From Cyanobacteria bacterium SZAS LIN-3 (GTDB lineage Bacteria; Cyanobacteriota; Vampirovibrionia; Obscuribacterales; Obscuribacteraceae): 64,000 nt of DNA. Positions 1,424-29,852 of the stretch are shown in pieces. The stretch is taken from assembly GCA_018266215.1 (NCBI GenBank), contig JAFEAV010000004.1, positions 1 through 64,000 of the forward strand, given 5' to 3'. Position 1 is the stretch's first letter. Each line of letters begins with the position of its first letter. The notes under the pieces are model-generated. The model had not been told where the DNA came from. It did no database searches and was given only the letters and a program-made list of their open reading frames with translations. Both the position numbers and the translations under genes were made by a program.

Positions 1424-2104
1424 TTAATTGGACTGTTCTATCGTATAACCAAGACTGGGCTCAGTCTTAATCAGGTCCGGCTTGCCGGCTGCATCGAGCT
1501 TGCGGCGCATATTTTTGATGAAGGTGCGCACCGTCCCTTCCGAGACTTCGCTGTCCGAGGGCCAGACAGCGTCGAGCAGCGCTTTAGCGCCAAAGACTTT
1601 GTTCGGGTGGCGCATGAGAAACTCCAGCACGGCTGCTTCTTTCGGCATCAGATGAAGTTCCTCGCCGCCGTCCACCCTGGCCGTTCGTTTGGCAGTGTTG
1701 AGGGTTAAATTGCCGATTTTCAATTCCGCCTGGAAGACGGTATTTGCCCTTCTCAAGGCGCTGCGCACGCGGGCGGAGAGTTCTCTGATATCAAATGGTT
1801 TGGTGACAAAATCATCAGCGCCGGCATCAAGTCCGGCTTCTTTGTATTTAATGGCGGAGTTGCCCGTGAGGAAAATTACCCAGGCGCCGCCACCGGAGCG
1901 TCTGTACTGTCCGCAGATTTCCAGACCGGTTATGTCCGGCAGGTTCCAATCCAGTAAAACAACGTCGTACTGGAAAGCCCCGAGCATTTGCAGCCCGTCT
2001 TCGCCGTTGCTGGCCAGCTCAACCACATGACCTTCGGTGGACAGCCATTCCTGGACTCGGTCGGCTATCTCTTCGTCATCGTCCACATATAGGATTTTGG
2101 CCAA
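1424..2104 (-). CDS. OmpR/PhoB-family response regulator
   Basis: A 226-residue two-domain regulator. The receiver domain (about 1-120) has the acidic pair near Asp8-Asp10, phosphoacceptor Asp52 in VVLLDWNLPD, the conserved Thr in IFLTG and Lys in FVTKPFD. The C-terminal winged helix (about 130-226) contains LMPKEAAVLEFLMRHPN and the wing GYTI. I start it at a TTG at 2104, with AGGAG seven bases upstream, which gives MAKILYVDDD, matching the start and length of the regulator at 51668. An upstream in-frame TTG at 2122 is less likely. No kinase gene is adjacent, so the partner is unknown. Confidence 0.92.
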   Translation of the reverse strand: MAKILYVDDDEEIADRVQEWLSTEGHVVELASNGEDGLQMLGAFQYDVVLLDWNLPDITGLEICGQYRRSGGGAWVIFLTGNSAIKYKEAGLDAGADDFVTKPFDIRELSARVRSALRRANTVFQAELKIGNLTLNTAKRTARVDGGEELHLMPKEAAVLEFLMRHPNKVFGAKALLDAVWPSDSEVSEGTVRTFIKNMRRKLDAAGKPDLIKTEPSLGYTIEQSN

Positions 2105-2143
2105 GGGGCAGCTCCTGCGCAAAACAGGATAATAATACCAGCA

Positions 2144-2656
2144 TTAATGGCTGTTTAGAGCTTTGATATCAGAGCTCTGTATCCAGTACTCAATGGGCTT
2201 ACCGCTGATTTTACCGGCCCACGTTTTACCGCTGCTTGCTTCTTCCCTGGTGATTTCAAAAAACGGTGTCAACGTGCCTTTTAAAACCTCTTTTTGCGCC
2301 GGGTCTGGCAATTTTGGCGAGGCGTACCAGGTGCCGTCGTCAAAATTGATGTGCTTATCTAAGCCGTGCTGGGCGTCCAGTGTGACGACTCCCGGGCCAT
2401 TCTTTTTCCAGGTGCGTCCGACCCTCTTGATGGCATAGACTTTGCCGGTTTCTTTTTCTTTAAACTCAAACCACCGGCATTCCCAGCCCCAGGAGTTATT
2501 TTCCTGGTAGATGACTGTTTTGTCCGTGCTGCTTTGGAGATAAAAATACACCCCGCCTTTACTTGAAAACACTCCGCAGCTAAGACCCTTAGCCAGAGCC
2601 GGGCTTACTGTTGCCAGCATAATTAGCGCCAGACTTATAAGGCCCTGATATTTCAT
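2144..2656 (-). CDS. Small secreted protein, unknown function
   Basis: A 170-residue protein from the ATG at 2656, which overlaps the panE stop by four bases (ATGA), so the two are translationally coupled. Residues 1-22 are a signal peptide ending in SPALAKG. The mature protein is rich in Trp, Lys and aromatic residues (NNSWGWECRWFEFKEKETGKVYAIKRVG) and has few Cys. I recognise no family. A longer start at 2704 would put 16 polar residues before the signal peptide and is less likely. Confidence 0.75.
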   Translation of the reverse strand: MKYQGLISLALIMLATVSPALAKGLSCGVFSSKGGVYFYLQSSTDKTVIYQENNSWGWECRWFEFKEKETGKVYAIKRVGRTWKKNGPGVVTLDAQHGLDKHINFDDGTWYASPKLPDPAQKEVLKGTLTPFFEITREEASSGKTWAGKISGKPIEYWIQSSDIKALNSH

Positions 2657-3585
2657 TTCGAACCCATCACATAGGGCGAAAGTATCGCCGAAAGTGTCGA
2701 ACATGTCGGAGTAGGCACATTCAGTTCCTGGCCAAGTTTTACTACTGTTCCGGCCAGCCAGGGCAGTTCCAGACGATTGCCTGTGCGCAGGTCGTGTTCC
2801 ATCGATGCCGTCACATCCGGTGCCAGATTTTCCAGATAGTTCATCTTAACGTCGACGATATCATCGGCAAGTTTTATACCTTTAGCTGTTGCCACCTGGC
2901 GTACTTCTTCCATAACCGCCGGCAGTAATTTGCGTGTATCGGGATTTTCGCGCACCGGTCCGATGGTCTTGCGGGCCGAGGCCAGCACTGTGCTCATACC
3001 CACCAGCACAACAAACTTTTCCCAGAGTGCGCGTTCGATATTGGCTGGTATTTCCACTTCGATGCCCGCTTTTTCGCAGGCTTCCTTCAGTTTCATCACC
3101 CGCGGTGACTGCGGCTTGTCGCCATATTCACCAAATACAAGCTTTTGCACATGGCCTTTCTGAGCAATTACCCCTGGCTCCCTTATCGTCGCACCGACAT
3201 AGCTGATGCCGCCCAGGATGTGCTTTTCGCCCAGTGCCGCCCGCAATATATCATCGCGGCTGACCCCGTTTTGCAACGATATCACCGCCGTGTTTTCGCC
3301 TACTAAAGGTTTGATTTTTTGCGCAGCCTCTTCGGTGTCCCAGAGTTTGACCGTAAACAATACATAGTCCACCGGACCGATTGTTGCCGGATCATCGGTG
3401 ACCATAACATTGTCCGCCGGTATGAGCGCGTCGCCGGTATTTTCATTCTCGATTTTCAGGCCATGCGCCTTAATTGCGGCAAGGTGTGCACCCCGCGCAA
3501 TGAAGTGCACTTCGCAGCCGCTCAGGGCCAGTCGCGCACCAAATAAGCCACCAACTCCACCACTGCCCATTACGGCTATTTTCAT
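2653..3585 (-). CDS. panE: 2-dehydropantoate 2-reductase
   Basis: A 310-residue ApbA/PanE-family enzyme that reduces ketopantoate to pantoate with NADPH in pantothenate and CoA synthesis, in the cytosol. The N-terminal Rossmann motif is at residues 7-13 (GSGGVGG). The conserved FTVK segment, the catalytic-lysine region ALWEKFVVLVGMS and the C-terminal SMEHDLRTGNRLELPWLAG pattern are all present, at normal family length. It overlaps the genes on both sides by four bases (ATGA at 3582-3585 and 2653-2656). The other pantothenate genes are not in the window, and the neighbours are envelope proteins, so another 2-hydroxyacid substrate is possible. Confidence 0.9.
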   Translation of the reverse strand: MKIAVMGSGGVGGLFGARLALSGCEVHFIARGAHLAAIKAHGLKIENENTGDALIPADNVMVTDDPATIGPVDYVLFTVKLWDTEEAAQKIKPLVGENTAVISLQNGVSRDDILRAALGEKHILGGISYVGATIREPGVIAQKGHVQKLVFGEYGDKPQSPRVMKLKEACEKAGIEVEIPANIERALWEKFVVLVGMSTVLASARKTIGPVRENPDTRKLLPAVMEEVRQVATAKGIKLADDIVDVKMNYLENLAPDVTASMEHDLRTGNRLELPWLAGTVVKLGQELNVPTPTCSTLSAILSPYVMGSK

Positions 3586-4055
3586 TTCGGCACCGACTTT
3601 TCAGCGTCTCTTCGTATCATCAAGGCTATTCCAATAGCCACTGTTGCCATACTGGCAAACCATACATAAAATCCAATGTGCGGGTAAAGAAACTTCAAAG
3701 AAGGCCCGACACCGCCTTCATTTTGCGGGAGATTTTGAAAATAAAGGAGGAAGGTGTTGAATGAATTGATCAGGGCGAAAATGCTGAGCCAGAAAGCCGG
3801 TCTGCGTTTGCCAAGAAAGAGCAAAATCAGGCTCAGGTAATAGAGGTAATTGGAAAATTCGGCGAACTGTCCTACCAGTGGCGCCAGAATGCCCATGGCC
3901 AGGCATTCATAGCCGGGCCAGTTGACCAGTCCGTGTCCATCATCAAATACCAGGGAGGGCAGGAAACAGGCGACTAAATAAAGGACAAAGCTCACCGTCG
4001 CGATCGAGGCCGGACTCAGCCTGTTTATCACCTTATTTGTAGCGGGATTGTCCAT
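3582..4055 (-). CDS. Four-helix membrane protein, unknown function
   Basis: A 157-residue protein with about four hydrophobic segments (roughly 17-35, 52-78, 84-105 and 128-146) joined by short polar loops. It ends in a basic, polar tail. It starts at an ATG 12 bases after the LRR gene stop and its own stop overlaps the start of panE, so it belongs to the same operon. I see no enzymatic motif. Confidence 0.75.
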   Translation of the reverse strand: MDNPATNKVINRLSPASIATVSFVLYLVACFLPSLVFDDGHGLVNWPGYECLAMGILAPLVGQFAEFSNYLYYLSLILLFLGKRRPAFWLSIFALINSFNTFLLYFQNLPQNEGGVGPSLKFLYPHIGFYVWFASMATVAIGIALMIRRDAEKSVPK

Positions 4056-4067
4056 AAATCAGTTATA

Positions 4068-5150
4068 TCAGAAGCGACGTTGACGCGACATCTGGCCGAA
4101 TATCGTGCCGGTTTCTTCGTCTACCGTTGCCGGCCCCCCTTTTGTGGTCACCAGCAGGTCTGGCATGGCTGCTTTTAGTGCGGCGATTTGTTGTTTGTTT
4201 AGAGTGCCGTCGGAGGTCGCCAAAAACTTCACGCCTGTGCCCTTAAGTTGCATCAGCGCTGTGCCGGTGAGCGATGTGCTGTGCACTTCCAGGTGTTGCA
4301 GGTTTTTTAGCTGCTTTATGTATTGCATGCTGTCGTCGCTGATGCCTGGATTTTTGCCGACGTCCAGCCAGCGCAAGTTTTTGCAGGCGGCCAGGTAGCG
4401 CATGCCCTGATTTGTTACATTGGCGCGGCTGAGTTGCAACATTTGCAGATTGGGATAATCCGCCAGTGCTTTGAATTCTTCGTCTTTCAAACCGACCGAA
4501 TCAAGCGACATGGCCGTGAGTTTTTTATTGCCCTTGAGGTCTTTAAAAAATGTCCCGCGCAAGGGTGTGAGGAATGCTGAGATATATTCTAAATTGGGCA
4601 GTGAAGCAAGAGCTTTCATGCCGGAGTCTGTGACTTCCGATTTATCTAGGATGACTGCGCGAATGCCCTTGAGGTGGGTCATTTGCGCCAGGGCGTGATC
4701 ACAAAGATCGTCTTCCGAATCGTCCATGGACATCAGTTTGAGAATGACGCAGTCAAAGGCTGTCGGCGGAAAATTTGCAATCAACTTGGGATTTTTGAAA
4801 AATTCTTTGCTTGCCTGAAAAGTTACGAAGCGATTTTTTGGTATCACAACTTTACCGCGGGCCTGCACTATTTGCGCAGGACTGGTACGGCCCCGGTTGC
4901 GCCAGTCGTTTTGAATAATGATGGTACCGAGCGAAAGAGATGGTGGAAATTCCAGCACTCGCTCCGGTGCGTCCCATTTATTTTCCAGAACGTCATACTC
5001 GCCTTTGGCCTGGGCTGTGCCCGCGTTCATCAGAGGTGTGGTGCATAGAGCCAAAATCGCCAGTGCGACTTTGAGCGACCTTGCAAATTTGCCTGTGGGG
5101 AATGAAATGGCTGCCAAAATCCTGTTTCTAAGTTGAAAAGATACCGTCAT
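4068..5150 (-). CDS. Exported leucine-rich repeat protein (paralogue of the one at 28809)
   Basis: A 360-residue protein with a signal peptide or anchor (residues about 20-48, ending in AGTAQAKG). Residues about 130-330 hold at least six LRRs of the ribonuclease-inhibitor-like type, e.g. LKGIRAVILDKSEVTDSGMKAL and LQMLQLSRANVTNQGMRYL. Such repeats bind proteins; the partner is unknown. It aligns along most of its length with the protein at 28809-29852, including the DDxED-rich entry to the repeats and the KxLxHLEVHxTxLT-like end. It is the first gene of the minus-strand run 5150 to 136. Confidence 0.85.
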   Translation of the reverse strand: MTVSFQLRNRILAAISFPTGKFARSLKVALAILALCTTPLMNAGTAQAKGEYDVLENKWDAPERVLEFPPSLSLGTIIIQNDWRNRGRTSPAQIVQARGKVVIPKNRFVTFQASKEFFKNPKLIANFPPTAFDCVILKLMSMDDSEDDLCDHALAQMTHLKGIRAVILDKSEVTDSGMKALASLPNLEYISAFLTPLRGTFFKDLKGNKKLTAMSLDSVGLKDEEFKALADYPNLQMLQLSRANVTNQGMRYLAACKNLRWLDVGKNPGISDDSMQYIKQLKNLQHLEVHSTSLTGTALMQLKGTGVKFLATSDGTLNKQQIAALKAAMPDLLVTTKGGPATVDEETGTIFGQMSRQRRF

Positions 5151-5187
5151 GATAGAGCAATATTATCTTTGCACATTCCCAAGTACA

Positions 5188-5219
5188 AAGCTGGACATTT
5201 GTAGACAAATGCCCAGCTT
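5188..5219. terminator. Long intergenic hairpin, probable terminator for the gene ending at 5282
   Basis: Arms 5188-5200 and 5207-5219 pair with a single mismatch (A5195 against C5212), giving a stem of about 14 pairs with a TAGA loop. On the minus strand it lies 63 bases beyond the stop of the 5282-5830 gene and is followed by TTTGTACTT. It also separates that gene from the LRR operon. The T tract is poor, so termination is likely rather than certain. Confidence 0.55.
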
Positions 5220-5281
5220 GTTTAACCCAAAGTAGTAAGCAGATTTTCTCTTAAACAGCCCTCCAGTTTAGTTTTACTGAT

Positions 5282-5830
5282 TTAGTAATAGCTGCACCAG
5301 GCGCTGGGCATGTTGCTCTGGTGACCTGTGGTCAGGCCGCCGCTGTTGATGCCGGAGCCGATGGTGTGCGATTCATCCATCCCGAACATTGGTGGAAGGC
5401 CTCCCTGTCCTTCATCTCCGTAAATCTGTTCCGCGGCTCCTCCGGCCTGATAGACGAAGCTGTCAAGCGTAGTCTTGGGCAATTTCTGGCTGCCCTTCTG
5501 GCTCAAAATCGTGCGAGTCGTATACGCGAGATTGAGCACTTTTGACTGCGTGTCGGTGAAGCGCGAAGGACTTGGTGTGTAATTTAGTTTACCGGTTGGT
5601 GCTGATGTCTGGTCTCCTGTAGTGGCCGCGACGCCCTCAAAACCGCCCTCGTCGTAGCCCGCGGCAGCTGGTGCTTGCGCGGACAGAGCGGTTTGTTGGG
5701 CTTCGAACGGTGTGAGATCAAATGTGCCGCCATTGGCATCGGCCAAGGCGTAGGGAGCCGTGGCAATAGCAGCGATTGAGGTGATGACGGTGAAGCGGAC
5801 GAATTTTTTAAAAGAAAAAGTGGACGACAT
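5282..5830 (-). CDS. Small secreted protein, unknown function
   Basis: A 182-residue protein. GGAGGG lies eight bases before the ATG at 5830. A signal peptide spans residues 1-30 (KKFVRFTVITSIAAIA, then APYALADA). The mature protein is Gly-, Ser- and Gln-rich, of low complexity and probably flexible, and ends with a Cys in PSAWCSYY. I recognise no domain. It is a single gene with its own hairpin terminator, 143 bases upstream of the next minus-strand stop. Confidence 0.7.
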   Translation of the reverse strand: MSSTFSFKKFVRFTVITSIAAIATAPYALADANGGTFDLTPFEAQQTALSAQAPAAAGYDEGGFEGVAATTGDQTSAPTGKLNYTPSPSRFTDTQSKVLNLAYTTRTILSQKGSQKLPKTTLDSFVYQAGGAAEQIYGDEGQGGLPPMFGMDESHTIGSGINSGGLTTGHQSNMPSAWCSYY

Positions 5831-5963
5831 GAACCGAGCCCTCCGTGGTGGCGGTGGTGCGTCTGTCGAGGTCAGGTACGCCTTTCAAAACTTAACTAGT
5901 AAGCCGTTCCTCGTTGACTTCGTAAATCTACGAAACAACTCGTGAAAAACTAGTGAACATAAA

Positions 5964-5984
5964 TGGGCTAAAACTAGTAGCCCA
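5964..5984 (-). terminator. Terminator hairpin overlapping the stop codon of the TPR gene
   Basis: Seven-base perfect arms (5964-5970 and 5978-5984) enclose a seven-base loop that contains the TAG stop of the TPR gene (5974-5976). Read on the minus strand the hairpin is followed by TTTATG; read on the plus strand it is followed by ATTTTTT, a better T run. It can therefore stop transcription from both directions. Confidence 0.6.
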
Positions 5985-7236
5985 ATTTTTTCGCTTTTGC
6001 GTAATCGGCGACTACCCGCGGAGTCTTCTTACCGTCGAGCTTTTCGTAGATTCTGGCGCGCTCGTGATAGCCCAATGAGTATTTGGGATTGAGTTCAATC
6101 AGGCGATTGTAATCGGCCAGGGCTTTTTGCAAGTCGCCGGCTTTGAAGTAGACCTCGCCTCTATATTGATAGTAGTCGGAGTCATCCGGCGCGCGTTCCA
6201 CAAGGGTGCTGTAGTCGGCTATAGCCTGCTTGTACTGGCCCATTGAGGTGTAGGCCACGGCGCGCTGCACGTAGGGCCAGTAGAGGGCCGGGCTGGTGGT
6301 GATAATTTTGCTGTAGTATTCGACCGCTTCTTTGTGCTTGCCCTGCTCGTCCAGCAGCTTGGCCAGCGAGCCTATTGCCTCGGCGTCTTTGGGATCGAGG
6401 GAGGCGGCTTTTTTGAAATCGGCGATGGCGGCAGGGTATTGCTTGAGATTTTCGTGCAAAAAGGCCCGGCTGACGTAAGCTTTTTCCAGGTCCGGTTTGA
6501 GTTTGATGGCTTTGTTGAGGTCCAGCTGGGCTTTTGGCCACTTGTTGAACCACTGCAGGCAGTCGCCGCGGGCGATGAGAGCGGCCGTATCGTTGGGATT
6601 GAGGGCCAGGGCACGGTCGAAATAAGCCAGGGCTTTGGTCTGTAACTCGGCTTTCATGCACTTTTCGCCCAGCTCGAGCATCCTGGTAGCCTCGGCTATG
6701 CGCTCGGGAGAGCCCGAGGCGCCCGACATTTTGCCAAATTTGGGGATGGTATTTGATTCTTTCTCGATAGCTGCGGCCTGCGCCCGTGCCTTTTTGGCCT
6801 CATCCTTTTTGCCCAGCTTGTCCAGGCAGGCGGCATACTCGTTCAGGGGCCAGACCACCTGGGGATCCTTGTCGCCGTTGAGTTTGGAGCGATCTGCAAT
6901 CATTGCCTTGAAGGTCTCTTCGGCCTCGGCCTTTTTGCCCATTTTCAGGTAGAGCAGGCCCAGCGCGTCGTATTCGGAGCAAAGGTCGAGCCCCAGGCTC
7001 TGGCGCTCGGCGATAATTCCTTTATATATGGCCTCGGCTTCGGCGTATTTCTTTGCCGTTTCCAGTGCCGTGGCCTTTTGCCGCTCCTCTCCCCACTTGG
7101 CGCTCTTGAGTTTGATCTGCTCGAGCTGGTCGGGGGTCTGCTTGGGGGCCGGCTCAGCGCTTTGACAGTGCGCCTGCAGGCCGCTGCTGATGAGCACTAA
7201 ACTGGCCAGGAGACCGGCTAATGGACGTGATTTCAC
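5974..7236 (-). CDS. Exported TPR-repeat protein
   Basis: A 420-residue protein. I use a GTG start at 7236 with GAGGA six bases upstream; it directly begins a signal peptide (MKSRPLAGLLASLVLISSG, then LQAHCQS). A Cys near the cleavage site could be a lipid anchor, but the lipobox is poor. The rest is tetratricopeptide repeats: two near residues 50-130, then about six in tandem from 185 to the end (e.g. AYVSRAFLHENLKQYPAAIA). TPRs mediate protein binding, here outside the membrane. The gene ends in its own terminator hairpin. Confidence 0.85.
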   Translation of the reverse strand: MKSRPLAGLLASLVLISSGLQAHCQSAEPAPKQTPDQLEQIKLKSAKWGEERQKATALETAKKYAEAEAIYKGIIAERQSLGLDLCSEYDALGLLYLKMGKKAEAEETFKAMIADRSKLNGDKDPQVVWPLNEYAACLDKLGKKDEAKKARAQAAAIEKESNTIPKFGKMSGASGSPERIAEATRMLELGEKCMKAELQTKALAYFDRALALNPNDTAALIARGDCLQWFNKWPKAQLDLNKAIKLKPDLEKAYVSRAFLHENLKQYPAAIADFKKAASLDPKDAEAIGSLAKLLDEQGKHKEAVEYYSKIITTSPALYWPYVQRAVAYTSMGQYKQAIADYSTLVERAPDDSDYYQYRGEVYFKAGDLQKALADYNRLIELNPKYSLGYHERARIYEKLDGKKTPRVVADYAKAKKLGY

Positions 7237-24182: not shown

Positions 24183-24566
24183 CTACGGCCGCTTGACCGT
24201 CTGCTGCGATACAATCTTTCCGCCCAGGGCCTGGACCAAAATCTCTACGCTGAGCTCCGGCTCGCAGGTGGTGCCGCAGGTGAAGCAATCCCAGAAAACT
24301 ACATTGCTCTCGGGATAGGTGTGGAGACTGGCGTGGCTCTCGGCCAGGAGCACCAGCGCGGTCATGCCCTGCGGTTGAAATTTGTGCGAGCACACATTAA
24401 GGACTGTCGCACCCGTCGCTTCCGCGGCGGCCAGGACAAGGTCCCTGAGCGCCTGCTCGTCATTGAGGAGTTCAGATCGGCACTCTCCCAGCGTCAGCAG
24501 CAGATGCTTGCCCGACGCCTCGTAGACCGGCGATTCTTGAGTCTGTTGCAATTGCAGTTCAGGCAT
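24183..24566 (-). CDS. speD: S-adenosylmethionine decarboxylase proenzyme
   Basis: A 127-residue class 1B (bacterial/archaeal short form) enzyme giving decarboxylated SAM, the aminopropyl donor for spermidine. Self-cleavage is expected between Glu76 and Ser77 in AESHASLHTYPE, leaving a pyruvoyl group on Ser77. The catalytic Cys lies in FTCG (Cys97), and the fold-typical start SGKHLLLTL is present. It overlaps the end of the FemAB-type gene by eight bases and is the last gene of the polyamine operon. Confidence 0.95.
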   Translation of the reverse strand: MPELQLQQTQESPVYEASGKHLLLTLGECRSELLNDEQALRDLVLAAAEATGATVLNVCSHKFQPQGMTALVLLAESHASLHTYPESNVVFWDCFTCGTTCEPELSVEILVQALGGKIVSQQTVKRP

Positions 24567-25629
24567 AAACGCCCTCCTTACGTGCGCGCATTCCGGCGTC
24601 GCTCTCGTTTACCACTTTGACAAAAGCGTCTGCCACATTGTCCAGGAAGAAGTAATCCTGTGCCCCGATCCATCTAATTGCATTGCCGCCAAACTGGCTC
24701 TTGAATTGAGAAAAGCGCGAGTAGGCTAGCTCTGGCGCGCGGAAGGGAGCGTAGCCGTAAAAATCATAGGTGGTGCAGCCGGCTTGTTTTGCTAATTGCA
24801 TAGCTCGCCATTGTAGCAAGTAACCACCCATTAGATTACGTTTGTCGTTGCTGATCCCACCATAGAGGTAGGTGGCACGCGCTCCGTGCGTTATGAGCAA
24901 AAGCGCTCCAAGGGTATCGTCACCGTGTTCGGCAAGCAATATTTTTGCCATACCGTTTTGCATGAGCACCGGCAGCATTTGCTCAAAAAATTCCTGCGGT
25001 TCGACGGCAAATGCGTCGCGTTCTCCCGCTTCGGTCAGTATGTCGTAAAACTTGTTCAGGCTAGCAGGGCTGCTGTGCTCTGATATCACCACACCATGCT
25101 TCTGGGCCAGTTTTATGTTGTACCGACCCTTCTCTTTCATTCTGCCGAGCTGCACCGACTCATCGTCGCACAGGTCCACGTAGAGCGTATCGCGCGGTAC
25201 GAGATCGAGCGGCGCCCTGCTAAATTCACGTAGTACTGGTGGCACCGGTGGTGCCAGGCGCGGCTCTATGCGCATGGTCATCACACCCAATGCCTGTGAG
25301 CGCTCCCGCACGGCTTCGATTAAAAGACCCAGGCCCTGGCTTGCGATGCGCTGGTTGTGCCAGGGTAGCACCGGACCCTCCGGTGCCACCACTATGCCTG
25401 CGCCGCTGCGCCCGCCGGAGGAGTAAAAAATCGCCCCTCCGATTAAGTTGCCATCCTCAAACAGACCCAGGTGAAAGGTGGTCAGGCCCTGGCGGCGTTT
25501 AGCTTCAGCCCAATGAAGGCTTTGCATAAAACCGCTGGCCGGATTGGTGCGGGTCAGTTCCTGCCACCTTTCACCGACAGCCGAGGAAGGGCACAGAATG
25601 CCCAGGTCTTCAACTGAGAGTCCGGACAT
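24559..25629 (-). CDS. FemAB-type aminoacyl/acyl transferase (GNAT fold)
   Basis: A 356-residue protein of the FemAB/BacA-like acyltransferase group. It has two linked GNAT-like domains, the typical opening FMQSLHWAEAKRRQG, the LYVDL and RYNIKLAQKHGV elements, and the end GGYLLQWRAMQLAKQAGCTTYDFYG, a strong family block. Known members add amino acids to the peptidoglycan peptide or to related amines, using aminoacyl-tRNA. It starts two bases after the spermidine-synthase-like gene and overlaps speD, so it is built into the polyamine operon. Transfer involving a polyamine or a wall precursor is inferred. Confidence 0.85.
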   Translation of the reverse strand: MSGLSVEDLGILCPSSAVGERWQELTRTNPASGFMQSLHWAEAKRRQGLTTFHLGLFEDGNLIGGAIFYSSGGRSGAGIVVAPEGPVLPWHNQRIASQGLGLLIEAVRERSQALGVMTMRIEPRLAPPVPPVLREFSRAPLDLVPRDTLYVDLCDDESVQLGRMKEKGRYNIKLAQKHGVVISEHSSPASLNKFYDILTEAGERDAFAVEPQEFFEQMLPVLMQNGMAKILLAEHGDDTLGALLLITHGARATYLYGGISNDKRNLMGGYLLQWRAMQLAKQAGCTTYDFYGYAPFRAPELAYSRFSQFKSQFGGNAIRWIGAQDYFFLDNVADAFVKVVNESDAGMRARKEGVYA

Positions 25630-25631
25630 TA

Positions 25632-27647
25632 TCAGGCGTCCTGCTGAGCACTTAATATTTTCAAGACTTGAGTAGCCTGGTCGGCATGGTCAGGCAACGT
25701 GGCCAGCCTTGCTTCGATTTCCAGGATATTCTGCCTTGTTTCATTGAGTGCTTTTTCGGTCAGGATGACGGCCTCGTCACCTTTAATGGTGCGGGTGCCG
25801 AAGCTGACGAGCTGGTCGCCTGCGGAGCGATACTGGCTGAGTTCGGTTTCGAGCATATCAGCCTGGCTGCGAAGCTCATCCCGGTTGGTCTGGAGCAGGC
25901 CGGACGTGGCGTTGTTGTCACGCACGGTTTGCTTGAGATAGGCGACCAGGGAGGCGCGCACCGCTGACGGGGTGTTGTCCTGCTGGGACAGGGTGCTACG
26001 GAATTCATACCAGCCGGCGGTCGGTATGTAGTGAGCAGTTCCGTCCGCAGCTTTTATCTCCAGTTGTTTGCCGTCGGCATTGATGGCGATGCCTGTCGGC
26101 AGGTTGGTCTGGTCGATGGGCTGGGCGTTGGCCAGGTTGTTTTTGACCGGCAGCGCACCCTGCTTCTGCATCCGTTTGACGGCCGCATCGTTGGGGCCTG
26201 GTCCGATCGGGCCTTTCTTGATCACTGTGCCGGGCTGATTGTAGTAGTAGGTCGAACCGCCGCCGTTCCAGTATCCGCCGTCGGCACCGCGTCTACCGTG
26301 GTGACCGCCGTCTTTTGCGTAGACGGCGTCTGGATAGAGGAGGTTGCCCAGTACTATGGCCAGGACCAGAATGCTCATCACTCGGTGCCCGAGGGTGAGC
26401 AGATTTTCGCGGTCGCCGCTCCAATCGGCCAGTTTTGCCTTAAGGTGTTTGAGCTCGGTCACCAGATATTCCGGCAACTCCGCAGCCCGACGCAGAAGCC
26501 GGTCGGTCAATGCGGTCAAATCGATGCCTTGCAAGAACCGCGACGGCGCTTCCACAAAGTTGGCAATCATTGTTTCCGTCTGTTGTTTTTGAAGCTCGGG
26601 CAGACTGGCCATGGTGTCACGCAGCAGGCGTTGAATGCCGTCGGCTTTGTCATTTTCGAGCACTACTGCCGGTTGCAGGGCGCTGGCCAGAGCCTGGCTC
26701 AGCTCCGGTGTCAAAATGTGGGTGGTGGTATCAGCTTCAGGTGCGCTGAATTCATCGCAGGTTTCGACGAACAAGTTGCGAGCACCGCCAGTGGTGTCGG
26801 AAATTGGTGTGGCATCGATGAAGTAATGGATGAGCACATCACTGCCGGCTCGTGTGGGCTTGGCCTGCGGCTGATATTGGAAGAGTGCTTCCGGGAAAAG
26901 GAAAAGACTCTGGAAAGCTTTTACTTCGGTAAGGACCGTTCTTGGTTCGGCGACTGAAAGATCGATATTGAGTTCTTCGCCGGTAATTGCTATCGGCGAT
27001 GCCAGGAAAAATGCCCAGTCGTCGCCGTAGCCGCGCGCAGCAAACGAAGGTATCTCCACGTGATATGGTCTAACATGCAAGCCGGCTTTGAGTAAGCTAT
27101 TGAATACGCACCAGAAAGCCTGGGGTGTTGCCTGGGCAGATACGCCATTGGCGGCGATGATGCCGTCTCTTGTCAGCAGTCCGCTCAATTTTTCGTACCA
27201 GTCGATGCTGTGGAATCTTGCTTCGTGAGCAGTTTCCGGTACAGTCAGGTCACTGATAATGAGGTCGAACTGGCGGCCTGATTGCAGCGCTTTTTCTACG
27301 AATTCCCATGCGTCTTCCACATGAACGGTGATGCGTGGGTCCGTCAGACTGTGATTGTTCAATGATGCAAAATCGGTACGAGCTAAATGGAGGATTTCCG
27401 GATCGTAGTCAACGAGATCGACGCTGTCGACTCTCGCGGATTTAAACAGCTCTCTTGCCACCAGACCGTCGCCGCCGCCGATGACAAGCACTTTCAGCTG
27501 GGCCCTGGAGCGTTTGGCCGCCAGCGCCAGCGCAGGGATAGAGAGCGCCTCATGGTAGATATTTTCATCACTACTATCAAACTGCAAATCGCCTTTAATC
27601 AGCAGAGCGATTTCGCCGTTTTCTCTTTTTTCCAGTGAAGCTGTCAT
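25632..27647 (-). CDS. Spermidine synthase-like protein fused to a membrane segment and coiled-coil tail
   Basis: A 671-residue protein. Residues 1-240 are a spermidine synthase: QFDSSDENIYHEAL, then GGGDG (57-61), DLVDYDP and DLIISDLTVP. A normal enzyme ends near residue 290. Here a helical linker follows, then one hydrophobic segment (about 424-443), a Gly/His/Tyr-rich stretch, a short beta-rich domain near 520-545 and a coiled coil (about 570-670). The segment plus its VYAKDGG junction looks like a signal anchor, placing the tail outside. Start: ATG at 27647 with AAGGGGGAAAG close upstream. It heads the operon with FemAB and speD. Confidence 0.85.
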   Translation of the reverse strand: MTASLEKRENGEIALLIKGDLQFDSSDENIYHEALSIPALALAAKRSRAQLKVLVIGGGDGLVARELFKSARVDSVDLVDYDPEILHLARTDFASLNNHSLTDPRITVHVEDAWEFVEKALQSGRQFDLIISDLTVPETAHEARFHSIDWYEKLSGLLTRDGIIAANGVSAQATPQAFWCVFNSLLKAGLHVRPYHVEIPSFAARGYGDDWAFFLASPIAITGEELNIDLSVAEPRTVLTEVKAFQSLFLFPEALFQYQPQAKPTRAGSDVLIHYFIDATPISDTTGGARNLFVETCDEFSAPEADTTTHILTPELSQALASALQPAVVLENDKADGIQRLLRDTMASLPELQKQQTETMIANFVEAPSRFLQGIDLTALTDRLLRRAAELPEYLVTELKHLKAKLADWSGDRENLLTLGHRVMSILVLAIVLGNLLYPDAVYAKDGGHHGRRGADGGYWNGGGSTYYYNQPGTVIKKGPIGPGPNDAAVKRMQKQGALPVKNNLANAQPIDQTNLPTGIAINADGKQLEIKAADGTAHYIPTAGWYEFRSTLSQQDNTPSAVRASLVAYLKQTVRDNNATSGLLQTNRDELRSQADMLETELSQYRSAGDQLVSFGTRTIKGDEAVILTEKALNETRQNILEIEARLATLPDHADQATQVLKILSAQQDA

Positions 27648-27683
27648 TCTTTCCCCCTTGATGCGACGTACGAAATAGGGTCG

Positions 27684-27823
27684 CTCGGCAGCAGCTGAGG
27701 AGCGACTCTTAAACTACAGGTCTTGGCTTCCCGCCTCGCTGCTTGCGTGGGCAATCGAAGAAGACCCGGCTATCTACTTCATAAACCAATTAGGCAACCG
27801 GGTTCCAGCTCGAGACTGCCGAG
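27684..27823 (-). ncRNA. Candidate structured RNA / leader of the polyamine operon
   Basis: Minus-strand leader. Eight-base arms at 27816-27823 and 27684-27691 close the structure and can be extended by a five-pair AGCTG/CAGCT helix. Inside are two further possible helices: ACCCGG with CCGGGT, and GGTCTT with AAGACC, which share bases and so exclude each other. A tip UUGC-CCAC-GCAA is also present. The 3' arm of the closing helix overlaps a seven-pair hairpin GTCGCTC/GAGCGAC with a 13-base loop, so the two exclude each other, as in a switch. A TATGCT (27827-27832) would start RNA at the closing helix. It matches no riboswitch core I know. Confidence 0.5.
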
Positions 27824-27889
27824 TTTAGCATACGGATTTCCAATTTACGGCGACATTTAAGGTAGCGGTTTCGACGCCTTGATTCCCCA

Positions 27890-28726
27890 TCACTTCTGAT
27901 CAAAATTCATCTGTCGTGAAAGCAGCGACATCATGCGTGGCGCCAGACCATTGAGCCGCTCGGCTACTTTGCCGGGGATGGTTAAGATCAGCTCCTGCGA
28001 CTGATCGCGGTTAAGTGATTGTACGATTTCTCTGACACATTCATCGGTGCTGATGCTCAGGATATGCTTCATCATAAAGCCCTTCAGATCTTTCTGTTCC
28101 GCTATCAGCACCGGGTTTCTCGTGTCCGGCATGCTGTTCTTTTCAAAAAATTCGGTCCGCACCAACCCCGGGCAGATGGTTATAACATCGACGTGGTGAG
28201 GCGCCAGCTCTGCCGCCAGGCCATTTGAGAGCGCTGTCAGGGCAAACTTCGAGGAGCAGTAGGGGACGCTGCCTGGGAACGATATTTTTCCTGCCACCGA
28301 CGAAATGTTCACTATTTTGCCGCGTGGACTTTTCTTCAGTTCGTCCAGGCAGGCGTAGGTCGTCTGCAGTGCGCTGAAGAAATTGACGTCAAAAAGTCGG
28401 CGCCAGTCTTCCACCTTGAGCCTTTCTACCAGTCCAGGCATACCCATGCCGGCATTATTTACGAGGAGATCAATGCCACCATATTTAGTGACGCAGAGCG
28501 TGGCCAGCTCCTGACTCAATCCTTCCTTCGTTATGTCGCCTGCAATAATCTCCGCTTCGCCGCCCAGCTTGCGGACCTCTTCTGCGCAGCTCTGCAGATC
28601 CCGCTCGGAGCGGGCGGTTAAGACCAATTTGGCTTTGTAGAGTTTGGCCAGATGTAGTGCCAGACCCCGCCCAATTCCTGTGGAGGCGCCTGTAATGATG
28701 GCCTTCACGTTGGTTGGTAGTGGCAT
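27890..28726 (-). CDS. Short-chain dehydrogenase/reductase
   Basis: A 278-residue classical SDR. Cofactor motif TGASTGIGRG near residues 12-21, NNAG near 89-92, catalytic Ser in NISSVAGK and the Tyr-X-X-X-Lys as YCSSK. The C-terminal half has PGLVRTEFF. The Arg in LTARSERDL after strand 2 suggests NADP. Short length, no anchor. Substrate unknown; the sequence resembles acyl- or sugar-type DHRS7-like reductases. It is a single gene with a divergent promoter region shared with the LRR gene at 28809. Confidence 0.88.
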   Translation of the reverse strand: MPLPTNVKAIITGASTGIGRGLALHLAKLYKAKLVLTARSERDLQSCAEEVRKLGGEAEIIAGDITKEGLSQELATLCVTKYGGIDLLVNNAGMGMPGLVERLKVEDWRRLFDVNFFSALQTTYACLDELKKSPRGKIVNISSVAGKISFPGSVPYCSSKFALTALSNGLAAELAPHHVDVITICPGLVRTEFFEKNSMPDTRNPVLIAEQKDLKGFMMKHILSISTDECVREIVQSLNRDQSQELILTIPGKVAERLNGLAPRMMSLLSRQMNFDQK

Positions 28727-28808: not shown

Positions 28809-29852
28809 ATGCACCGGCGCGGCCAGCACGTGAGAAATATACATATTTGGCTGTGTCTTTTGATTGGCTTTGCGTATGCCTTGCTGCCGGCCGCTGTAGC
28901 GCAGTCCGGCAGACCGGAGCTGCCTCGGCCTGAGATTCTGCCGGTGGCTAAGGCCCGGGTTTTGCACTTCTCGACGGATCGAAGTATCGGTCGCGTGACT
29001 ATTCATGTGGGCCATCCGGGCATTCCTACTGGTCCGGGGAAACAATACCGAGCTCAGGGTGATATTCCCGTTCCAGCCAATGCCGTGACTCGTCTTGAGG
29101 TAAATTCAGATTTCTTTCGACATCTCGATGCTTTCAAGACGCTGGACCCTTATAGTTTGGACGCATTGATGTTGCGGCTTTCTTCGACAGACGATGCCGA
29201 GGAAGGCTTGCTTGACGAGGCTTTAGCGCATATCGGCCATTTAAAAGGATTACAGGCTGTTTTCCTTGATCGTTCTGACGCCAGTGATAAAGGGCTCGCT
29301 CATCTCAAGTCCTTGACAAACCTGCATTTCATTGAAGCAAGTAGTTGTCTGACTAAGGGCGCGGCGCTTAAGGAGATATCTACGCTGACTGAATTAAAGA
29401 CGATTCGCCTGGGGAGTAATGCCATTGATCAGGAGAATCTCAAGTATTTATCGGCTCTGCCTAAACTCGATCAGCTTGCCCTCACTCGTACCGGCTTATC
29501 GGCTAAGGGTCTCAAATACGTCGCCAATTGTCCCAAGTTGATTGTGTTGCAAATTGGGAGAAACGGCGATATTGGCGATGACGAAATGAAATATCTTGTG
29601 CCCTTAAAGAAGCTGGCGATACTCCACTTGAACGATACAGCTGTTACCATGAAAGGCCTGGCCACTCTCAAGCACTTAAGACTTGTAGAGTTTTTACCGC
29701 CACGCGGCTCTTATTCGGCGGATGACCTGAAGCGCCTGCATCAGTGGTTTCCTCTGGCGAGGATTGAACTGAGCCGCGAAGACAATGCTGATTGGCATAA
29801 GATGGATCCGAAAAATCTCTTCAAGCCAATATCCAAAGACAAAGGTCTTTGA
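28809..29852 (+). CDS. Exported leucine-rich repeat protein (paralogue of the one at 4068)
   Basis: A 347-residue protein with a signal peptide (basic MHRRGQHVR, core WLCLLIGFAYALLPAAVA). Residues about 110-310 hold LRRs of the same type as in the protein at 4068 (e.g. LKGLQAVFLDRSDASDKGLAHL and LVPLKKLAILHLNDTAVTMKGL). The two align nearly end to end, differing in the N-terminal linker and the tail. It stands alone and its stop lies two bases from the stop of the opposing gene at 29855. Confidence 0.85.
   Translation: MHRRGQHVRNIHIWLCLLIGFAYALLPAAVAQSGRPELPRPEILPVAKARVLHFSTDRSIGRVTIHVGHPGIPTGPGKQYRAQGDIPVPANAVTRLEVNSDFFRHLDAFKTLDPYSLDALMLRLSSTDDAEEGLLDEALAHIGHLKGLQAVFLDRSDASDKGLAHLKSLTNLHFIEASSCLTKGAALKEISTLTELKTIRLGSNAIDQENLKYLSALPKLDQLALTRTGLSAKGLKYVANCPKLIVLQIGRNGDIGDDEMKYLVPLKKLAILHLNDTAVTMKGLATLKHLRLVEFLPPRGSYSADDLKRLHQWFPLARIELSREDNADWHKMDPKNLFKPISKDKGL

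Follow-up and report, generated by a model that had tools for sequence, protein, structure and literature searches.

The window analysed here is a stretch of 64,000 nucleotides (positions 1 to 64,000 of contig JAFEAV010000004.1) from Cyanobacteria bacterium SZAS LIN-3, an Obscuribacterales metagenome-assembled genome (MAG) of 6.77 Mb in 186 contigs, to which, among named records, Cyanobacteria bacterium REEB67 comes closest (75–78% protein identity). On its minus strand, to which all window coordinates below refer unless a neighbouring gene is meant, lies a three-gene operon that encodes, in 5′ to 3′ order, a fusion of a SpeE-like domain, a membrane segment and a coiled tail (here called SpeE-star), a FemAB-family aminoacyl-tRNA-dependent transferase, and SpeD, a class 1b S-adenosylmethionine (AdoMet) decarboxylase. 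Judging from the sequences, the operon would specify a dedicated aminopropylation and aminoacylation pathway on the membrane side, and would be a FemAB-bearing variant of the systems in which a spermidine synthase-like protein fused to a major facilitator superfamily domain (MFS-SpdSyn) is encoded with an AdoMet decarboxylase (AdoMetDC) and DUF350. We place this reading slightly above even odds, at a probability of about 0.55.

The genes of SpeE-star (positions 25632–27647; 671 aa), FemAB (24559–25629; 356 aa) and SpeD (24183–24566; 127 aa) form an operon with translational coupling. The first two are spaced 2 bases apart and the last two overlap by 8 bases, and each product scores above its Pfam cut-off (Spermine_synth 95 bits, FemAB 117 bits against a cut-off of 24, AdoMet_dc 112 bits). 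On these grounds the earlier note, which had described the three genes as a real unit, is borne out. The upper limit of 27823 that it gave to the unit marks no gene boundary and lies about 176 bases too far upstream, since the ATG of SpeE-star at 27647 is preceded by a strong ribosome-binding site, AAGGGGGAA, within the intergenic region 27648–27889.

The SpeE-star–FemAB arrangement is conserved far beyond chance. Across 53 Obscuribacterales genomes, the two protein types occur together in 25 and are both missing from 24, with each found alone in two genomes (Fisher p ~1e-10, kinship among genomes ignored). The four mismatched genomes are all cases at contig ends, except for one, G017. SpeD lies directly downstream in about 10 Obscuribacterales loci, and no further conserved neighbours beyond SpeE-star, FemAB and SpeD were found in the loci of this order. 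A scan of named genomes recovered full-length relatives of SpeE-star from Herpetosiphon aurantiacus DSM 785, Geomonas sp. Red32, Calothrix, Sphaerospermopsis, Leptolyngbya, Lyngbya, Sericytochromatia and Armatimonadota, and FemAB follows SpeE-star in every one of these whose contig continues. The gene order thus occurs in several phyla (Cyanobacteriota, Herpetosiphon, Armatimonadota, Geomonas), and the possibility that it exists only in this genome, which the earlier note had raised against its own proposal, therefore falls.

A wider survey used as its probe the clade-specific middle region of SpeE-star (aa 278–414; 26406–26816), a helical region of no known family that was delimited from the alignment of homologues. 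This region was found in about 11 of 386 Cyanobacteriota genomes, with one more match being marginal, and SpeE-star is therefore patchily distributed in this phylum; FemAB was present in all 10 of the clear positives that were fetched. Within the phylum of Herpetosiphon, 7 of 301 genomes carried the region, six of them being additional positives. The genome of the window itself contains a second, diverged SpeE-star–FemAB copy (locus L080, G000:C3, positions 2015–6366; 42–46% identity), which has a small DUF350 gene behind FemAB and no adjoining SpeD.

The aminopropyltransferase-like domain of SpeE-star (aa 1–277; 26817–27647) is predicted to adopt a spermidine-synthase fold: the predicted local distance difference test (pLDDT) of its AlphaFold model is mostly >85, and Foldseek matches the model to the T. 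thermophilus aminopropyltransferase 1uir with an E-value of 1e-17. Its score against the speE equivalog (TIGR00417) is 92.5 bits, below the cut-off of 249.55. The best NCBIfam match is PRK03612, the N-terminally membrane-fused type (204 bits), which is matched over its SpeE half only and below its cut-off of 472. As in SpeE, the donor site and the catalytic Asp are retained. Asp133 (27249–27251), which corresponds to human Asp173 and P. falciparum Asp196, is kept in all homologues (63 of the 63 rows that have the position), and no other residue of the gatekeeper loop is as well kept; the role of human Asp173 is treated in PMC12812037. The donor-site residues are likewise kept across phyla in the roughly 62 SpeE-star homologues compared, a set that includes some duplicate records. 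The second Asp of the loop is found in none of them, its place being taken by Val136 in the window (27240–27242) and by Val, Tyr, Ala, Cys, Phe, Trp and other residues across the clade, while it is present in 62 of 62 MFS-type proteins and in eight of the nine true SpeE proteins of Obscuribacterales. In the P. falciparum structure, the equivalent residue, Asp199, forms a hydrogen bond with putrescine's distal amine, and the two Asp residues have been called invariant in spermidine synthases (PMC4356361). SpeE-star further differs from SpeE in an insertion of 5–6 residues after the PSF motif and in its membrane anchor. Because the donor residues and the catalytic Asp are kept and the second Asp is lost, SpeE-star would seem to have kept its donor chemistry and to differ in its acceptor site. 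The absence of this Asp from all of the homologues, together with the score of 92 bits where the speE model asks for 250, argues against the spermidine-type amines that had been suggested as substrate.

In a maximum-likelihood tree, all SpeE-star proteins fall into one clade with support of 100/98, the stem of which is 0.88 changes per column long. This clade is sister to the MFS-fused spermidine synthase-like proteins and is split from true SpeE (99/96).

SpeD scores 114 bits against TIGR03330 (cut-off 75.65) and has the active-site residues Ser77 (pyruvoyl), His82 and Cys97, as read against PMC10407285, along with the Pro of the HTYPE motif. By its family and these residues, it is predicted to make decarboxylated AdoMet; activity as an arginine or ornithine decarboxylase was also considered, and is disfavoured by the HTYPE Pro and the TIGR03330 score. 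An ordinary spermidine operon, in which spermidine would be the product of SpeD and SpeE, with FemAB as a passenger, would agree with the domain names and with a SpeD that has all the residues of a true AdoMet decarboxylase. This explanation is nevertheless highly improbable, given that FemAB adjoins SpeE-star in several phyla, that SpeE-star forms a separate clade in which every member has lost the acceptor Asp, and that the same genomes show signs of a homospermidine-type route elsewhere.

Such a separate triamine route is plausible in cluster-bearing genomes, 16 of 18 of which encode a deoxyhypusine-synthase homologue; a homologue of this kind makes homospermidine in Anabaena (Burnat et al., 2018, cited in PMC8503589). 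Most Obscuribacterales genomes also have a second type of SpeD (L002, G000:C103:64488-64823, and orthologues), which in G022 and G051 is encoded about 2 kb from the deoxyhypusine-synthase homologue. A similar arrangement has been described for arginine-decarboxylating SpeD homologues (PMC10407285), and the second SpeD type perhaps serves as arginine decarboxylase in a homospermidine route. In each of the five phototrophic cyanobacterial genomes tested, the SpeE-star locus holds the sole Spermine_synth protein, and in four of them also the only AdoMetDC, the fifth (Lyngbya) having one additional sub-threshold match. In Herpetosiphon and in Geomonas the one AdoMetDC present is likewise encoded at the SpeE-star locus, and these genomes encode other Spermine_synth-domain proteins as well. 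In the genome of the window, the clear Spermine_synth proteins are SpeE-star and its second copy on contig C3, a third match being weak (33 bits). As a separate observation, a DUF1611 (P-loop) gene directly precedes speD in three loci (L116, L118 and L119, from Leptolyngbya, Lyngbya and an Oscillatoriales MAG).

The earlier description of the SpeE-like protein as membrane-anchored holds up well. Its only hydrophobic segment (aa 415–444; 26316–26405; hydropathy peak 2.0) coincides with a conserved hydrophobic block and is predicted to be a single anchor. It follows the clade-specific region, in which AlphaFold confidence is low for aa 311–358, and runs into a nearly invariant PDxxYAK motif in the alignment of homologues (aa 439–445; 26313–26333). 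In full, the motif after the membrane segment reads N...PDxxYAKG, with no variation at N, D and K across 20 diverse rows of the alignment, and it may resemble a signal-peptidase I site. Beyond the anchor come a Gly-rich linker and a coiled tail (aa 447–671; 25635–26309). The tail varies in length among relatives: whole proteins range from about 490 to 965 aa, with the last ~150 aa conserved, and in phototrophic cyanobacteria the tail has only about 43–59 residues. A Gly/His/Arg-rich stretch follows the anchor, to which the long forms add a beta-hairpin and coiled-helix tail, and the AlphaFold model of the Herpetosiphon tail consists of beta-hairpins and long helices. A PDB fold search with this tail gave no confident match, the weak prefoldin- and MacA-like hairpin matches having E-values >0.1, and a profile comparison of the SpeE-star tail with the DUF4178 domain was negative. 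Many MAG contigs end inside the low-complexity Gly/His/Arg-rich stretch (L082, L088, L090, L092, L096, L098), and automatic annotation is therefore likely to split or truncate the gene.

A long, variable transmembrane tail with coiled helices, joined to a domain with an altered acceptor site, could also be expected of a catalytically silent sensor, which would bind decarboxylated AdoMet, 5′-methylthioadenosine or a polyamine and signal through the membrane to its tail, leaving FemAB with an unrelated job. A pure sensor would have no need of the catalytic Asp and the donor residues that are kept across phyla, and SpeE-star is strictly coupled to FemAB and SpeD, which makes such a role improbable.

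FemAB matches FmhB (6snr) and FemX (1ne9) in the PDB, and scores 55 bits against the FemX equivalog, for which the cut-off is 500. Like the FemABX enzymes FemX of Weissella and FmhB of Staphylococcus, it has an invariant Lys, Lys44, where FemX has Lys36, and in all complete homologues the Phe309-Lys310 pair (24700–24705) that corresponds to FemX Phe304-Lys305, Lys305 being the catalytic Lys. Unlike them, it has Glu210 (25000–25002) at the place of FemX Arg211; Glu occurs here in 49 of the 49 homologues that have the position, and Arg in FemX and FmhB. Arg211 and Lys36 of FemX are residues that we take to contact the phosphates of the substrate. The catalytic role of Lys305 is described in PMC12945691. 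In the genome of the window and in several complete cyanobacterial genomes, FemAB is confined to the SpeE-star context, and two relatives that lack the operon (G016 and G033) have no FemAB; it is therefore not a general wall-bridge enzyme.

These results bear directly on peptidoglycan, the target named in the earlier note. With lipid II or UDP-MurNAc-pentapeptide as the substrate of FemAB, the wall would come to contain a polyamine or aminopropyl group; this would accord with the family membership of FemAB and with the retained equivalents of Lys36 and Lys305, and a membrane-anchored SpeE-star would be a fitting partner for a lipid-linked substrate. We nevertheless regard decoration of a peptidoglycan precursor as unlikely and find no specific support for it, considering the invariant Glu at the Arg211 position, the lack of any FemAB in G016 and G033, and the neighbourhoods, where no wall gene recurs beside the pair and the genes that do recur are known from membrane-stress operons. 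FemX-like tRNA-dependent enzymes that act on small molecules are also known (VlmA, PacB, DhpH-C and Orf11; PMC12945691) and offer a precedent for placing amino acids on non-wall amines with this fold, although the same review links none of them to polyamines or spermidine. In the open-access papers searched, we found nothing that links FemAB with SpeD, spermidine synthase or DUF350. The analogy drawn earlier with the polyamine-containing peptidoglycan of Veillonella and Selenomonas shares with the window operon the linkage of amines to the envelope and otherwise involves the wrong chemistry: there, another type of enzyme links a diamine through an amide bond to a wall carboxyl, whereas FemAB enzymes transfer an aminoacyl group from its tRNA to an amine. 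To our knowledge, neither FemAB nor SpeE takes part in forming those walls.

Clusters that combine an MFS-SpdSyn-like protein with AdoMetDC and DUF350 were reportedly described by Li and colleagues. The likeness of the window operon to such clusters lies first in the sister SpeE-like domain of the PRK03612 kind, which is common to these and to the PspA-CesT/Tir operons, and second in the presence of AdoMetDC (SpeD) in the clusters of the window, Herpetosiphon, Geomonas and the five phototrophs. In phototrophic cyanobacteria and Geomonas, the cluster reads DUF4178 - SpeE-star - FemAB - DUF350, with SpeD near by in most cases, and the clusters of Armatimonadota have a DUF2617 gene two genes upstream. 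DUF350, DUF4178, DUF2617, AdoMetDC and a spermine synthase fused to a seven-transmembrane (7TM) domain are all parts of membrane-stress and polyamine operons, among them the PspA-CesT/Tir operons, for which either polyamine monitoring or "aminopropylation of other substrates" has been proposed (Ravi et al., 2024, PMC11237479, citing Li et al., 2019, Biochem J 476:2579); that work makes no mention of FemAB. The proposed non-polyamine target is a further point of likeness to the MFS-SpdSyn systems. The envelope link suggested in the earlier note gains support both from the anchor of SpeE-star and from these homologous clusters with DUF350 membrane proteins and with DUF4178 of membrane and envelope-stress operons (PMC11237479). 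The differences from the MFS-SpdSyn and 7TM types are that SpeE-star starts at its SpeE domain, with no N-terminal MFS or 7TM part, that its clade-specific region, anchor and variable tail are C-terminal, that its second active-site Asp is lost, and that FemAB lies downstream. From the shared partners and the sister clade without MFS, it follows that the window operon would be a FemAB-bearing, MFS-less variant of that class. Two Obscuribacterales loci (L100, G048:C82, and L101, G030:C3) encode the MFS-SpdSyn type next to DUF350 and DUF4178-like genes, and some genomes have both systems.

Sister DUF350 operons carry AdoMetDC with an ATP-grasp ligase related to glutathionylspermidine synthetase (PMC11237479). 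FemAB could fill the slot of this ligase, in which case SpeE-star would make an amine that FemAB caps, as the ATP-grasp enzymes may do, and the product would be a soluble aminoacyl-polyamine conjugate, with the invariant Glu210 suiting a cationic acceptor. A soluble product needs no membrane anchor, however, and SpeE-star lacks the Asp for diamine acceptors, so that we consider this outcome distinctly unlikely.

In the membrane-side pathway that we favour, SpeD would make decarboxylated AdoMet, and SpeE-star, anchored C-terminally at the inner face of the membrane, would transfer the aminopropyl group to an amine, probably one other than a simple diamine, because its donor site is intact and its acceptor site altered. 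FemAB might then use aminoacyl-tRNA to attach an amino acid to the primary amine so formed, or might already have acted on the same acceptor, while the tail of SpeE-star would reach the opposite side of the membrane. The system would be completed by DUF350 and DUF4178 proteins in cyanobacteria and Geomonas. Candidate acceptors are a lipid head group, an envelope glycan, a lipid-linked peptide and a protein.

Several points weigh against this pathway. SpeD adjoins the SpeE-star–FemAB pair in only about one third of the Obscuribacterales loci, and the window copy has no DUF350 or DUF4178 neighbour. In G017 (L095, 6945–9177), SpeD comes directly after SpeE-star and FemAB is missing, so that the two steps can be uncoupled. 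Both Asp residues are present in the MFS type, which is nonetheless said, in the 2019 work of Li and colleagues, not to make spermidine; the choice of acceptor therefore cannot depend on this Asp alone. Finally, the side of the membrane on which the tail lies is one that we infer. The G017 locus amounts to a natural deletion, and could show which step FemAB adds.

Upstream of the operon, the gene for a short-chain dehydrogenase/reductase (SDR; 27890–28726) is not conserved across the Obscuribacterales loci. Further on, positions 28809–29852 of the window encode a leucine-rich-repeat protein with a hydrophobic stretch at its N-terminus, and a similar-looking protein is also encoded beside the second SpeD in L002.

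The cluster is carried by named strains (Calothrix NIES-22, Sphaerospermopsis NIES-73 and Herpetosiphon DSM 785), so the proposal is directly testable. Since these genes are labelled "spermidine synthase" and "SpeD" by domain models, spermidine synthesis is probably being ascribed to cyanobacteria and Herpetosiphon through a route that is absent there. More tentatively, SpeD, SpeE-star and FemAB might make a new class of envelope molecule in Cyanobacteria and other phyla, namely a lipid, glycan or lipid-linked peptide bearing an aminopropyl group and an amino acid added from tRNA, which in several phototrophs could be the sole use of decarboxylated AdoMet. If the membrane-side pathway favoured here is correct, decarboxylated AdoMet would have a second conserved use besides polyamines, and FemAB, with its amide-forming, tRNA-dependent step, would hint at the product of the MFS-SpdSyn/DUF350 membrane systems.

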